Below the pieces are notes generated by a model. It worked only from the letters and a program-made list of their open reading frames with translations, had not been told where the DNA came from and ran no database searches. Below, piece by piece: positions 50,114 through 59,955 of a DNA stretch of 64,000 nt. The number at the start of each line of letters is the position of its first letter. Positions within the stretch are counted from its first letter, which is position 1. Position numbers and translations under genes: made by a program. This DNA is from an uncultured Flavobacteriales bacterium (GTDB lineage Bacteria; Bacteroidota; Bacteroidia; Flavobacteriales_G; Salibacteraceae), in assembly GCA_943788725.1 (NCBI GenBank), contig CALSRJ010000001.1:556861-620860 (forward strand), read 5' to 3'.

Positions 50114-51146
50114 TAACGCGTTGTGCGGTTAACTCCATGCATGCCTGATTTGGTTTATTGGTCTGCCTTTTTCAAGGTTAACCCATTGAAGTACAGCGAT
50201 TGCAGCTAATTTGCTCATGATTCTGGTGAAGAGTCCAGCGAAGGTTTTAGCATAGTTTTTTTTCAGCTTGAACTGATCACACAGCTGCGAGAAAAGAACC
50301 TCAATTCTTCTTCGTTTTTTACCCAATTCAGGATCAAATGGTGTGTAATCTTTCTGATTGCGTCTATACGGCACAACCAGTTCAATATCATGAATCGTAA
50401 ACAGATCATGCTGAACTTGAGTGGAGATGTATCCTCGGTCACCGATGAGCGTTCGGCCCTGTTGAGTGAAGTCTGGTTCGTATGCCTTGAGCGCAGTTAT
50501 ATCATGTATGTTGGCGGGTAGAATTTGCATTTCATTGGTCACTCCATGCTCATCTACCATCAGATGGAGCTTGTATCCAATGAAGTAGCGTTGGTCAACC
50601 GCCGAATATCCTTTACGTGGCGAGGTTTGTTCCTCTTGCTTACATATTCGGTAACTCCGCTCTCGGCTATTCTTCACAACAGGTATGGGTACAGAATCTA
50701 TCAGGTCAATGATCGTTTTCTGTTTTCCCAGGCACATACCGATGCGCTTGCAAAGCTCTTCGATGCGCTCACGGTGTCTGCGTCGTCTTACGTTGAACCG
50801 CGAACGGTCTGGCAGATTTGGAAAGTCTTTTTGGTAGTCGCTTCGAAGAATTGAGAACAGCAAGTTCTCACTATCTATGGAAGCCGACTCAGCCATCAAT
50901 GAAAGTGCTATAATGCCGATGTCACTGAATGCAGGTGGATTGGGATAGAAGTCAAAGTTGCCCAGTTCGTCGATCTCATCTTCATACATCTGCTCGGTTA
51001 ATTCCAGACACTTTTCGTACATTGTTCGCAAGTCATGCATAGGGTCGTAGATTAATGATTTAGTACCCTTAAGATACTGACCATCAATACTATGCATGAC
51101 TTTTTATTTCAATTGTTTTTAACATTTTCAACCGCACAACGCGTTA
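50114..51146. mobile_element. IS982-family-like insertion sequence
   Basis: 1033 bp bounded by 17-bp perfect inverted repeats TAACGCGTTGTGCGGTT / AACCGCACAACGCGTTA enclosing one transposase ORF. Confidence 0.9.
50129..51097 (-). CDS. IS982-like DDE transposase
   Basis: LPDRSRFNVRRRRHRERI; IIDLIDSVPIPVVK; YFIGYKLHLMVDEHGV; LIGDRGYIS; KKRRRIEVLFSQLCDQFKLKKNYAKTFAGLFTRIMSKLAAIAVLQWVN. Confidence 0.85.
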   Translation of the reverse strand: MHSIDGQYLKGTKSLIYDPMHDLRTMYEKCLELTEQMYEDEIDELGNFDFYPNPPAFSDIGIIALSLMAESASIDSENLLFSILRSDYQKDFPNLPDRSRFNVRRRRHRERIEELCKRIGMCLGKQKTIIDLIDSVPIPVVKNSRERSYRICKQEEQTSPRKGYSAVDQRYFIGYKLHLMVDEHGVTNEMQILPANIHDITALKAYEPDFTQQGRTLIGDRGYISTQVQHDLFTIHDIELVVPYRRNQKDYTPFDPELGKKRRRIEVLFSQLCDQFKLKKNYAKTFAGLFTRIMSKLAAIAVLQWVNLEKGRPINQIRHAWS

Positions 51147-51176: not shown

Positions 51177-52184
51177 ATGAATAAATTTCACGCACTCACC
51201 CTCTGCACAGCCCTCTTCTTCGGTCTGCATGTCGGCGCCCAAAACACCATTAACCTCTCCATTGAGCACTACCTGCAAGATGCACCGCTGGCCTTCAACC
51301 AGGCTTCACAAACGCATGAAGCACGCGACTTTGACGTTACCCGTCTTCAGTACTACATCAGCGAAATCTCGACGGAGGACAACGGTGGAAACACCTATGG
51401 TTTCGACAGCTTGTGGGTATTGGTAGATGCATCGCACCCTACCGACATCGACCTTGGGTCGGGATCTATGGACTCGATTGTTTCCGTGACCTTTCACATC
51501 GGCGTGGACTCCGCACACAATCACCTCGACCCTTCCTCTTGGCCCAACGACCATCCACTGGCCCACAAGACTCCATCCATGCATTGGGGATGGGCCAACG
51601 GCTACCGATTCGTTGCCATGGAGGGAAACTGCGGAGATGATATGAACCAAGCCTATGAATTGCATGGTCTTGGCGATGAGAATTATTACTCCATTACCAT
51701 TTCGACCAAAGCAGGCGCAGAGAATGGGATCATTGATGTGCCGATATATGCCAATTACGCTGAAATCCTTCGCGGTTTGGATATCTCCAATGGGCTGATT
51801 TCTCATGGCCCGATCTACGAAGCGCAGACCAGCGTAGAAAACATGCGCGATTATGTGTTCGGACCGGAAGTACCTGAATCTACCGTTTCTTCAGAGCCGA
51901 ACGATACTTCCCTAGCTGTAGCTGGCGTTGCTGATGCCTCGTCCTTTGTGCTTTACCCCAACCCATCGTCGTCCAATCGAGTACACATAACGGGCAATTC
52001 ACTTGCTTCTTACACCGTGCAAATCACAGACCTTCGAGGATCTATACTCGGTGAATTTGCGCTTCTTGCAGGGGCCAATGAGTTGGACTTAACTGACTTA
52101 AAGGCTGGTTCGTACTGCATAACGTTTAGAAAAACCGCTGGTGAAGGTCCTGCCTTACAGCACCGGAAATTTGTGAAGCTGTAA
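51177..52184 (+). CDS. MbnP-like protein with T9SS type A sorting domain
   Basis: DVTRLQYYISEI; VTFHIGVDSAHNHLDPSSWPNDHPLAHKTPSMHWGWANGYRFVAMEG; C-terminal FVLYPNPSSSNRVHITG. Confidence 0.82.
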   Translation: MNKFHALTLCTALFFGLHVGAQNTINLSIEHYLQDAPLAFNQASQTHEARDFDVTRLQYYISEISTEDNGGNTYGFDSLWVLVDASHPTDIDLGSGSMDSIVSVTFHIGVDSAHNHLDPSSWPNDHPLAHKTPSMHWGWANGYRFVAMEGNCGDDMNQAYELHGLGDENYYSITISTKAGAENGIIDVPIYANYAEILRGLDISNGLISHGPIYEAQTSVENMRDYVFGPEVPESTVSSEPNDTSLAVAGVADASSFVLYPNPSSSNRVHITGNSLASYTVQITDLRGSILGEFALLAGANELDLTDLKAGSYCITFRKTAGEGPALQHRKFVKL

Positions 52185-52378: not shown

Positions 52379-55282
52379 ATGTACAATTTGGAAAAAGTCA
52401 TTTTGATATCTGGAACGTTGGGAAACGGTCATCGTGGAGTGATTGCATTGGATATCCTTCGTTCGCAAGATAACATCAACGTAGTAGATCATGACTCCGT
52501 AGACCAAGTCGTAAACGGAAGCCCCTGCTCAGGCATTGTGCTATCCTCCTTGCCTGAATCCGAGTTAATACTGGCGGTTCGGAAATCCAAAACGCTACAT
52601 CCCCACATCCCTTTGCTCGTCATCGTTGAATCGCTGACGGATGCCTTTCTCCTTCTCCTCATGGATGCTGGCGCCGACGACGTATTTCTGGCCGATGAAA
52701 TTTCTGCAGATGCCATTCGTCGTAAATTGCTCATGCTCAACACGAAAAGGAAGGCCCTTTCCAGCAAAATAGCAACAAGCACCCAAAAGCAGCTAGAAGC
52801 CATTCTTTCTCACGCCAACATGGGTTTAGCCATGACCGACGACCGAGGTCGCTTCCTATACACCAACCAAGGCTTGGCCGATCTATTGGGCTACGACTTA
52901 GAAGAAATGACCCACCTCGGTATTTCTGATGTTGAGCCGCCCGAGGCTTTCTCACTGGAGCGGAGATACATCGAAGAAGCCATGCGCAACAAGCGTGACT
53001 CCTATCGGATGGAACAAAAACTCATCAAAAAAGATGGTACGGTAATCTGGATTGACCTCAGCGTGACGGTCTTGCGGGATGAGCAAGGAAAACTCAAGAA
53101 CCTCATCGGCGCAATTGTTGACGTTACTGAGCACAAGCAAGCCCAACTAGCGCTCATCAACAGCGAACGGCAACTAAAGGCAAGTGTAGATCGGTTTCGA
53201 AACCTAATTGAGCACAGTACTGACGTCATCGCTGTGGAAGACATCAACTTCAACTTGATCTACATCAGCCCATCGGTGTACCAAGTCTTAGGGTATTCAG
53301 AGCACGAAGTACGCAGTAAGAATGCTGAAAGTTTTGCACACCCAGACGACCTTGAGAAACGCAAAGAACACCTGAGGAGACTTCTCCGGGACGATGTGTC
53401 ATTGGTGCAATTCAAAGAACGCCTCCTCCGGAAAGACGGAAGCTACATTTGGGTGCTCGCCACCTTCTCTAATCAGCTCGATGTGCCAGGAGTAGAAGGC
53501 ATTGTGCTCAACTTCAAGGATATAGACCAAGAAGAGCGTACAGCAAGAGAACTCAAAGAAGCCTACGAACGCTACGAATTGGTTACAAAGGCTACCAGCG
53601 ACATCATTTGGGATTTCAATCTTATAACGGGTGAGATCTCAAACACAGACACGTTCGAAAAGGTTCTCGGTCATACCCTGAACGAAATGAAGCGCAACGA
53701 CTGGGAGTCTTATGTGCACCCGGAAGACCGAGCCTACGTCAGGAACCTGCTTCAGAAAACACTGAACGACCCCATTAAAGATCAGTGGAAAGCCCAATAT
53801 CGTTTCATCAAGGCAGATGGAAACTACGCTTGGGTTTCCGACAACGCCACTATTCTGAGAAACGTCAAAGGGAAAGCCGTTCGGATGATCGGAGCCATGA
53901 GCGACATTACGGAACGCAGAGAATACGAGCAATCCATTGAAGCTCAAAACGCAAAACTCACAGAGATTGCTTGGATGCAAAGCCATATGGTACGTGCACC
54001 CCTGGCAAACTTGATGGCGCTACTTGAATTACTCGACGACTCCAATGCTGAGGAAGCCACCATGCTGCGCAAGATGGTCCATGAAAGTGCCGGAGAATTG
54101 GATCAGGTCATCCGCAACATTGTCAAAAATGCCGAGCGCTTTGAGCGAACAGAAGGTGCAACCGCCATCACGCGCTACGGATTGTTGGGTGAAGAATTGA
54201 ACGAGCTCTACCTCCACCCTGCCTTGCTCGATTTGGCTACGCGTGCATACAGCATTACCAACAAGAAAGACCAGATCGTATATGCAAACCAGGCCTTTAT
54301 CAAGATGTCTGGGTATGAGTACGAATTCTTACTAGGAAAGGCGCATTCAAGTCTTTTGGTTGGGCCAGAAACCAACTTGGAAACACTGAAATTCATGGCG
54401 CAGCGAGAATCGGACCGTCAGCCCTATGAATCAGAAATTTACTGCTACAGTGCTGATGGAAACCCATTTTGGGTGCGCATCACGGCGCAGCCGTTCATCT
54501 CCAAGCAAGGTACCTTCAACGGGTATTTCTATACCAAGAAAGACATCTCAAAAGAAAAGATGGCAGAATCTACCATCATCGAAAAAACGGAGATCCTCGC
54601 TGGCATCAACAACGAGCTAAAGAACTTCACCTACACCGTTTCCCATGACCTCAAAGAACCAGTCAATAGCCTTAGAGCGCTCATGAACCTGTTGCTTACA
54701 CAGGCAAATCACAAGCTCGATGAAGAGGAAAAAGAATTCATCACCCGAGCCATGAGCAGCATCGAACGCATCAGCAGCATGGTGAAGGCGCTGCTCGAAT
54801 ATTCGAGGAGCAGCAACATGACCGAACCGCTGGGCGAGGTAACCCTGTCTAGCGTGGTAGAAGAGGTGCGAGATGCGCTTCAAAATCAAATCCAAGAAAA
54901 TGAAGCTTCTCTGGTGTTGAAAGGAGATGATTTGGAGATGACCCTCTTCCCTCTCCAATTTTCCAGAATCCTTCAAAACTTGGTCAACAACAGCCTCAAA
55001 TTCAGGTCTGACAGAAAACCTGAAATCGTCATCTCTTCTTCCAGTACAAACACGCATTGGAAGATTACGGTAGCTGACAACGGCATTGGAATCGACAAAG
55101 AAGACTTGAATAAGGTGTTTGACCTGTTCTATTACAAAAGCTCCATCAACCGTTTAGACAGCCATGGAATTGGTTTGGCTGTAGTCAAAAGACTTGTAGA
55201 GCAGCACGAAGGTGAAATCAACGTATCTAGCGTATCAGGGAAAGGAACTACATTTACTTTTACGGTCAGGAAGAGCGTCTGA
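52379..55282 (+). CDS. Multi-PAS hybrid-like sensor histidine kinase with receiver-like N-terminus
   Basis: PAS segments (LGYDLEEMTHLGISDVEPPEA; LGYSEHEVRSKNAESFAHPDD; LGHTLNEMKRNDWESYVHPED); FTYTVSHDLKEPVNSLRALMNLL H-box; HATPase DNGIGIDKEDLNKVF. Confidence 0.94.
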   Translation: MYNLEKVILISGTLGNGHRGVIALDILRSQDNINVVDHDSVDQVVNGSPCSGIVLSSLPESELILAVRKSKTLHPHIPLLVIVESLTDAFLLLLMDAGADDVFLADEISADAIRRKLLMLNTKRKALSSKIATSTQKQLEAILSHANMGLAMTDDRGRFLYTNQGLADLLGYDLEEMTHLGISDVEPPEAFSLERRYIEEAMRNKRDSYRMEQKLIKKDGTVIWIDLSVTVLRDEQGKLKNLIGAIVDVTEHKQAQLALINSERQLKASVDRFRNLIEHSTDVIAVEDINFNLIYISPSVYQVLGYSEHEVRSKNAESFAHPDDLEKRKEHLRRLLRDDVSLVQFKERLLRKDGSYIWVLATFSNQLDVPGVEGIVLNFKDIDQEERTARELKEAYERYELVTKATSDIIWDFNLITGEISNTDTFEKVLGHTLNEMKRNDWESYVHPEDRAYVRNLLQKTLNDPIKDQWKAQYRFIKADGNYAWVSDNATILRNVKGKAVRMIGAMSDITERREYEQSIEAQNAKLTEIAWMQSHMVRAPLANLMALLELLDDSNAEEATMLRKMVHESAGELDQVIRNIVKNAERFERTEGATAITRYGLLGEELNELYLHPALLDLATRAYSITNKKDQIVYANQAFIKMSGYEYEFLLGKAHSSLLVGPETNLETLKFMAQRESDRQPYESEIYCYSADGNPFWVRITAQPFISKQGTFNGYFYTKKDISKEKMAESTIIEKTEILAGINNELKNFTYTVSHDLKEPVNSLRALMNLLLTQANHKLDEEEKEFITRAMSSIERISSMVKALLEYSRSSNMTEPLGEVTLSSVVEEVRDALQNQIQENEASLVLKGDDLEMTLFPLQFSRILQNLVNNSLKFRSDRKPEIVISSSSTNTHWKITVADNGIGIDKEDLNKVFDLFYYKSSINRLDSHGIGLAVVKRLVEQHEGEINVSSVSGKGTTFTFTVRKSV

Positions 55283-55713
55283 TGAACGAACAGTGCTGGG
55301 TAGACATGCAGAATAAAGTTGAATTCTTGATGGTGGATGATGATGAAATGACCTTGTTCATTCACGAAAAAATCATGCATCGCTGTGAAATGAAGCACCC
55401 TTTTCAGTCGTTCAATTCTGCCGAAAAATGCCTCGGGTACTTAGTCGCAGATAACACGCCAGCAAAACTCTTCATCCTGCTGCTCGACATCAACATGCCG
55501 GGAATGAGCGGCTGGGAAATGCTCGATCGCCTGGAATCCGACGTGAAAGACAAGGAAATTTTGGTCATCATGGCAACTTCCTCGGTAGACTTTGACGACC
55601 GCAAACGCGCCGAGAAATATGAACGCGTTATCGATTTCATCGAAAAACCTTTCTCGCTCGATACCTGCAAAAACCTGTCGAACATCCCACAGGTTGCAGC
55701 GTTGAACCTTTGA
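55282..55713 (+). CDS. Single-domain response regulator (CheY-like)
   Basis: VEFLMVDDDEMTLFIHEKIM; LFILLLDINMPGMSGWEML; start overlaps kinase stop. Confidence 0.93.
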   Translation: MNEQCWVDMQNKVEFLMVDDDEMTLFIHEKIMHRCEMKHPFQSFNSAEKCLGYLVADNTPAKLFILLLDINMPGMSGWEMLDRLESDVKDKEILVIMATSSVDFDDRKRAEKYERVIDFIEKPFSLDTCKNLSNIPQVAALNL

Positions 55714-58167: not shown

Positions 58168-59836
58168 AACAATCCCGAAATATTCCCTTCAGCGTCGATG
58201 TCGATGTGCTCAGCTGCGGGCTCCGCGGGGAGCCCTGGCATGCGCATGATGTCGCCCGTGATCGGAATCAAGAATCCCAGCCCCGCTCGCGATCTCTATT
58301 TCACGCACGGTGACGACAAAATCCTTCGGCCTGCCCAGCAGTTCTGGGTTATCGCTCAACGACTTTTGCGTCTTCGCTATGCAGACCGGCAAACCCGACA
58401 AGTCCCAAATCCTCTATCTTTTTCAAGTCCTTCTTCGCCTTTCCCAAGAAGTCGATCGCAGAAGCCCCGTAGATCTATTTGGCGATGCGTTCAATCTTCG
58501 CTTCGACCGCTGAGTCTTCAACTCGTACATCGGTGTAAATCGTCCTGTGAAGCCCTCTACCGTTTCGGCCACTGCCTCGGCTAGTTCTTCTGCTCCCTTC
58601 CCGCCTTCGCCCCAGACGTTGGCAACGACCGCTTTCACACCTTTTGCCTTGCACGCGTCACACCACCGTCTGAAGCTCCTCTTCGGAATCAAAGGTGAAT
58701 TGATTGATCGCAACCACTGCAGGAACGCCAAAGTGTTTGATGTTCTCCAGGTGTTTCTCCAGATTGGGTAAACCGCGCTTCACCGCATCCACATCTGTTT
58801 CATTCAACTCCTTTAGCGGCTTACCACCGTGGTATTTGAGCGCTCGAATCGTAGCTACTAGCACCACAGCTCTTGGACTAATTCCAGCAGAGCGGCACTT
58901 GATGTCGAAGAATTTTTCAGCTCCGAGGTCAAATCCGAATCCGGCCTCAGTCACCACATAATCGCTGAGTGACATGCCCATTTTGGTAGCGATGACAGAA
59001 TTGGTGCCTTGTGCAATGTTGGCGAATGGCCCTCCGTGAATGATGGCGGGATTGCCCTCCAAGGTCTGAACCAGGTTGGGTTGTATAGCATCCTTCAGCA
59101 ATGCTGTCATTGCTCCATGTGCTTTCAGGTCCCTGGCATAGATGGCCTGCTTATCGAAAGTGTAGCCAACAAAAATGTTTCCGATGCGCTCTTTTAGATC
59201 TGCAAGGTTTTCGGCTAAACAGAGAATGGCCATGATCTCACTGGCAGCGGTAATATCAAATCCCGATTCGCGCGGAACACCCATCGTAGGTCCGCCTAGA
59301 CCAACCACCACCTTCCGAAGCGCACGGTCGTTCATGTCCATGACCCGTTTCCAAGAAACCGTCCGAGGATCGATCTTAAGAGAGTTCTTTTTGCGTTGGA
59401 TGTCGTGATCAATCAAGGCAGCAAGAAGGTTGTGCGCCTTCTCTATCGCCGCGAAATCGCCTGTGAAGTGGAGGTTGATATCTTCCATGGGCAGTACCTG
59501 ACTGTATCCTCCGCCGGTTGCACCGCCCTTCATCCCAAACACAGGGCCCAATGATGGCTCCCTCAACACAACCGTGGTGCGTTTTCCGATGCGATTCAAG
59601 CCTTCAGCCAAACCGATCGATGTAGTAGTCTTTCCCTCACCTGCAGGCGTTGGACTTACGGCAGAAACCAAGATGAGTTTGGAACGATCAATCGCTTCTT
59701 GATCCAGCTTAGACAAAGGAATCTTTGCCTTAAACTTTCCATACATTTCTATCTCCTCTGAATCCAAACCCAACTTTGAAGCAATCTCAGTAATGGGCAG
59801 AAGGGTGGCTTTTTGCGCGATCTCAAGATCAGTCAT
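58164..59836 (-). pseudogene. fhs: Formate-tetrahydrofolate ligase, disrupted in its 3' third
   Basis: Intact N-terminus ([15 protein letters not shown]...[23 protein letters not shown]). C-terminal segments [53 protein letters not shown] and [35 protein letters not shown] lie in different frames. Confidence 0.88.
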
Positions 59837-59955
59837 GCTCATTTTTGTTTGGGACGTAAATCTAGCATTTGCTCGCATGCCCACGCCACCTCACGTGGCA
59901 TTCTCACCTTCCAAAAGAACCGAACGAGCCGAAGGATTGCTACTACCTTTGCGAA

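Follow-up and report, generated by a model that had tools for sequence, protein, structure and literature searches.

The window, by which we mean the whole stretch of 64,000 nucleotides analysed here, carries on its forward strand a gene (52379..55282) for a fused sensor protein of 967 residues plus a stop codon, in which a receiver-like N-terminus is followed by three PAS domains, a DHp of the orphan type described below (DHp1), another PAS domain, a HisKA domain (DHp2) and a HATPase domain, all on the same strand. Pfam searches with the 967-residue protein returned four PAS domains, one HATPase_c domain and HisKA. The first three PAS domains, matched by Pfam PAS families, span 52780..53925; DHp1 follows at 53930..54133, with the H-box WMQSHMVRAPL and its histidine, His536, at 53984-53986, and this hairpin leads into the fourth PAS domain (54221..54583; PAS_9, residues 624-724). 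Thereafter come DHp2, a canonical HisKA domain at 54617..54811 with the H-box TVSHDLKEPV and His756 at 54644-54646, and the HATPase_c catalytic domain at 54956..55273 (residues 860-965, E=1.6e-27), in which the N and G boxes are present. The initial annotation had proposed a DHp-like segment with no ATPase directly behind it, a PAS-like region between two H-boxes, and a second, canonical H-box accompanied by the sole HATPase, and all three are borne out, the DHp2 segment alone matching Pfam HisKA with E=3.9e-13. The C-terminal half of the protein, HisKA and then HATPase_c, is that of an orthodox sensor histidine kinase, and no profile match to the HPt domain (PF01627) was obtained in the whole sensor protein or in the DHp1 segment.

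The first ~130 residues (52379..52765, forward strand) had no Pfam match; the only similarities, all weak, were with a response regulator chain (E=0.052) and with relatives of receiver-PAS-DHp architecture (E=0.013-0.017), and the segment may represent a pseudo-receiver lacking the phospho-acceptor Asp. Degenerate receiver-like N-termini were also observed in three other orphan-DHp proteins (L144, L140 and L036), at a position similar to that of these residues. Adjoining the sensor gene downstream, a single-domain receiver (55282..55713, forward strand) retains the acidic pocket and the active-site Asp and Lys, and belongs to a class found downstream of orphan DHps. It lies where a co-encoded receiver had been annotated, apart from its start, which is probably 55306 (MQNKVEF) and not 55282, because in a relative with 91% identity the earlier position offers no start. 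The gene immediately preceding the sensor (51177-52184, forward strand) encodes a protein of the MbnP family (E=2.6e-26) that carries a Por secretion C-terminal sorting domain, and a DDE transposase gene (DDE_Tnp_1, E=1.1e-18) occupies 50129-51097 on the reverse strand, ~1.3 kb upstream of the sensor gene.

An assembly artefact was ruled out as the source of the fused gene by the presence of the same fusion, at 91% identity, in an independent genome (loci L032 and L138). Comparison of the two fused genes gives a dN/dS well below 1 across DHp1 (dN 0.095, dS ~2.6, the latter saturated over this short region), a pattern that, within the limits of a saturated dS, indicates that DHp1 is under purifying selection in the fused lineage.

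Two lines of evidence bear on the nature of DHp1, namely its fold and its subfamily. Taken alone, the segment scores 23.5 bits against Pfam HisKA (PF00512; E=5.9e-5), below the cutoff of 26.9 bits, while two of its relatives pass that cutoff (L078 with 27.6 bits and L087 with 31.1 bits). AlphaFold2 predicts for the DHp1 monomer a confident antiparallel helical hairpin (pLDDT ~85-93) with a proline kink after the histidine, and for the third PAS domain together with DHp1 a PAS fold and a helical hairpin kinked at the H-box proline (mean pLDDT 87); a 469-residue model running from DHp1 through PAS and DHp2 to the HATPase is of low confidence at DHp1. Separate alignments were used for structure prediction, full-length or mixed alignments having placed the DHp of kinases onto DHp1. 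Foldseek searches with the PAS3-DHp1 model returned mostly PAS and LOV-kinase structures and were uninformative for the DHp. HisKA similarity and the invariance of the histidine and an arginine among its relatives also disfavour a passive coiled coil as an account of DHp1.

The two DHps of the sensor belong to different subfamilies, DHp1 scoring 88.2 bits on the orphan-DHp profile against 24.5 on the canonical profile, and DHp2 22.7 against 77.4 bits, respectively. In the tree, orphan and canonical DHps part with a single change, although support is modest and the groups are score-defined and hence partly circular. Together, profile scores and tree rule out a tandem duplication of one DHp, and the earlier description of a "duplicated" DHp does not hold. 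DHp1 instead belongs to a family of C-terminal DHp modules in Bacteroidota that lack an ATPase, and is fused ahead of a complete PAS-HisKA-HATPase kinase.

This family was assembled by searching 396 Bacteroidota genomes with the 72-residue DHp1 segment, complemented by family, order and contig searches; systematic sampling covered Bacteroidota. Of the many relatives recovered, 96 non-redundant genes were read, including the window gene and its close relative, all picked by similarity to DHp1. At E<=1e-14, the family profile finds members in 52 of the 396 genomes and 27 of 172 genera, with up to 11 per genome, a count whose weakest few matches may be ordinary kinases. In all 94 unfused members read, the DHp forms the C-terminus of the protein, with 1-31 residues after it and no HATPase. 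These relatives are ATPase-less HisKA proteins, which the window protein, with its HATPase accompanying DHp2, is not. Among 18 unfused members scanned for full domains, PAS precedes the DHp, often together with GAF, a receiver or MASE11, and in 20 of the 96 orphan proteins a receiver domain is part of the protein itself, mostly at the N-terminus. Within this sampling, fusion to a full kinase was seen only in the window genome and one genome of the same genus (G409). Thus, the possibility that the architecture is already common in Bacteroidota applies to the unfused module and not to the fusion. Two kinases (L075 and L173) have a DHp similar to that of the orphan family (61 and 54 bits), yet with a HATPase directly behind it; these are possible ancestors or intermediates of orphan DHps, and their existence makes it plausible that the family descends from kinases that lost their ATPase.

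The residues around the H-box show what the family has kept. The phospho-acceptor histidine (His536 in the window protein) and the arginine at +3 are invariant in the 96 orphan DHps, and the proline at +5 (P541 in the window protein) is kept in 95 of them. Willett and Kirby reported that, in HisKA proteins, the acidic residue at +1 is required exclusively for kinase activity and the Thr/Asn at +4 exclusively for phosphatase activity (PMC3510030). An acid at +1 occurs in 22 of 96 orphan DHps against 26 of 30 canonical DHps of the same loci (p=4.5e-10), no orphan DHp carries Thr/Asn at +4 (0/96), and both features are missing in 74 of the 96; DHp1 of the window has Met at +1 and Ala at +4. Judged by these positions, the family has largely lost the kinase residue, has wholly lost the phosphatase residue and has never lost the histidine. 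As the +1 and +4 residues are specific to kinase and phosphatase activity, respectively, chemistry of the histidine with a receiver would therefore remain.

This residue pattern bears directly on the idea that His536 is a second target of the single HATPase, so that one catalytic domain would serve two acceptors. The arrangement of both DHps on one polypeptide with a PAS linker between them would suit such a trans-kinase, and there is precedent for split histidine kinases: a HATPase is missing from 3.66% of the HisKA proteins in SMART, and in kinases of the CheA3/CheA4 type phospho-acceptor and ATPase reside on separate units (PMC3591291). However, the acid that HisKA autokinase activity needs at +1 (PMC3510030) is replaced by Met in DHp1, and the HE/DxxN/T motif used to predict bifunctional split kinases, with both residues, is found in 0 of the 96 orphan DHps, in contrast to the CheA3/CheA4 type. 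Moreover, most orphan relatives have no HATPase partner encoded nearby, and we consider this explanation quite improbable.

Gene neighbourhoods tie the orphan DHps to single-domain receivers. Within 150 bp of orphan-DHp genes and on the same strand, such receivers occur at 1.27 per kb, compared with 0.012-0.022 per kb at 1-5.5 kb, in counts taken over loci that are phylogenetically non-independent, and the opposite strand has none within 1 kb. The receivers fall into two classes according to their side: all 12 immediately upstream are Rcp1-like (EDNxGDILLT...), and all 24 immediately downstream, the window receiver included, are of one other class (VDDD...DINMPxxxGWxFLD...TSSxDxxDxxKA), which is not confined to orphan DHps, since members with lower profile scores occur elsewhere. 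Many loci show the order kinase, receiver, [receiver-PAS-DHp], receiver, the fullest form of the cassette. A downstream receiver accompanies 22 unfused genes, and for 10 of these the locus around them, ~12 kb in length, encodes no kinase; therefore, the receiver tracks the orphan DHp and not a kinase.

Residue conservation and receiver linkage weigh on two further explanations. According to one, DHp1 is a dimerisation spacer (a role already raised in the initial annotation), its helical hairpin being a passive remnant of a gene fusion, as its sub-threshold HisKA score and the lack of an ATPase directly after it might suggest. Yet an invariant His and Arg and a near-invariant Pro across 96 relatives, purifying selection on DHp1 in the fused lineage (with dS saturated) and the linkage to receivers are hard to reconcile with a passive element, and we judge a spacer highly improbable. 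According to the other, DHp1 pairs with DHp2 or with the DHp of another kinase and inhibits it, as RetS does with GacS, where one DHp could regulate another and heterodimerisation is established (PMC12189002). In line with this, RetS chains are among the solved structures nearest to the orphan-DHp profile, along with DHps of other kinases. RetS, however, is a hybrid kinase and not an ATPase-less C-terminal DHp, the pairing of DHp1 with DHp2 is hypothetical here, and the two differ strongly in sequence. Hetero-association also leaves unexplained the invariant histidine, the tight receiver linkage and the receiver pairs whose locus has no kinase at all, and we assign it a small probability.

The fusion itself adds to the picture. 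In the tree, the nearest relatives of DHp1 are the orphan DHps of L042-L044 (support 91/81), and at these loci the gene order of DHp sensor, kinase and receiver of similar type is the order found in the fused gene. In addition, the best genome-wide match to the kinase half of the window protein lies less than 4 kb from an orphan DHp in 5 of 9 other genomes, a small sample selected for holding orphan-DHp cassettes. This gene order and these matches support a functional link of the orphan DHp with kinase and receiver, within the limits of a sample so small and selected.

Taken together, we favour, with a probability of about 0.5, a reading in which DHp1 serves as a PAS-controlled node at which the neighbouring receiver docks or exchanges phosphate, similar to Spo0B and ChpT, the transfer chemistry being inferred. 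The HATPase would phosphorylate His756 of DHp2 only, the small receiver would dock on DHp1, and phosphate may pass between the receiver Asp and His536, in a direction that we can only propose. In unfused relatives, the full chain would run from kinase to receiver, on to the DHp histidine and then to a terminal receiver. The fused protein would place kinase and relay node on one polypeptide, and therefore the PAS inputs ahead of DHp1 could determine to what extent the receiver retains or loses its phosphate. Of the functions initially suggested for the first DHp, a second phospho-accepting site is the best supported, given a histidine conserved in 96 of 96 members and a dedicated receiver class adjoining many of them, with fusion taking the place of the supposed duplication.

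Spo0B and ChpT are dimeric DHp-type hairpins with a phosphate-shuttling histidine and no autokinase activity (PMC3433190), and the cassette resembles their order of kinase, receiver, DHp and receiver. The degenerate ATPase-like domain that follows the DHp of ChpT is absent here, DHp1 being followed by PAS and the unfused relatives ending within 31 residues. Unlike Spo0B and ChpT, the orphan DHps carry sensory PAS, GAF or receiver domains, and phosphotransfer, with which the gene order is compatible, is a proposal for them. Against a relay, beyond the missing ATPase-like domain, stand the orphan genes, about two thirds, with no receiver next door. In addition, the fused operon has one receiver, and the receiver-like N-terminus, itself a weak assignment, lacks the Asp; therefore, the route by which phosphate would reach His536 is not obvious. 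The retained histidine could also serve receiver docking alone.

This last point leads to the main rival, in which the phosphorylated receiver docks on DHp1 without transfer and alters the activity of the attached kinase, in the manner of DivL. Like the window sensor, DivL has several PAS domains, a non-autokinase DHp and, as partner, a single-domain receiver; it binds DivK~P through its DHp, needs R553, and lacks kinase and phosphatase activity (PMC4211667). The receiver linkage of orphan DHps and the loss of their two catalytic positions (+1 in most, +4 in all) agree with such a role, and R553, three residues past the H-box position, parallels the invariant Arg at +3 (PMC4211667). DivL, however, has Tyr in place of the histidine that all 96 orphan DHps keep, and retains a catalytic domain directly after its DHp, whereas for many orphan members there is no kinase, fused or neighbouring, that they could control. 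On balance, we regard DivL-like sensing as unlikely, and the phosphotransfer or docking node remains our preferred reading.

ATPase-less HisKA proteins as such are known. Those with PAS/GAF sensors have been described in Archaeoglobi and Methanomicrobia, with a suggested phosphoacceptor role (PMC5847659), and P2CS classes such proteins as 'phosphotransfer proteins' or 'incomplete HK' (PMC2716373). The Bacteroidota proteins share with them PAS/GAF sensors, a C-terminal HisKA-like domain, the conserved histidine and the lack of a HATPase, and differ in the WxQSHxVRAPL motif, the loss of the kinase and phosphatase residues and the linked receiver classes; the window protein differs further in its fusion to a full kinase. 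In the open-access literature, we found no description of the Bacteroidota orphan-DHp family, of its cassette and receiver classes, or of the fusion, all of which look undescribed on this basis. More broadly, though this is somewhat less likely than not, Bacteroidota may use a widespread, undescribed relay of kinase, Rcp1-like receiver, [receiver-]PAS-orphan-DHp and dedicated terminal receiver, in which the orphan DHp would be an ATPase-independent, sensor-gated phosphotransferase of an origin separate from Spo0B and ChpT, and of which the window would show a fusion to the kinase. Orphan-DHp proteins would probably be annotated as PAS proteins or broken histidine kinases, and should the orphan DHp act as a relay or docking node paired with a receiver of its own, circuit wiring would have been missed in some Bacteroidota genomes, which hold up to 11 copies. 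The natural fusion makes the question directly testable, with one protein, one small receiver and two separately mutable histidines.

Further downstream in the window, the gene for formate-tetrahydrofolate ligase (58210-59890, reverse strand) appears split into successive frames. Profile positions 1-392 match the open reading frame 58658-59890 and positions 394-445 the next one (58423-58779), a break that reflects either a frameshifted pseudogene or a sequencing error.
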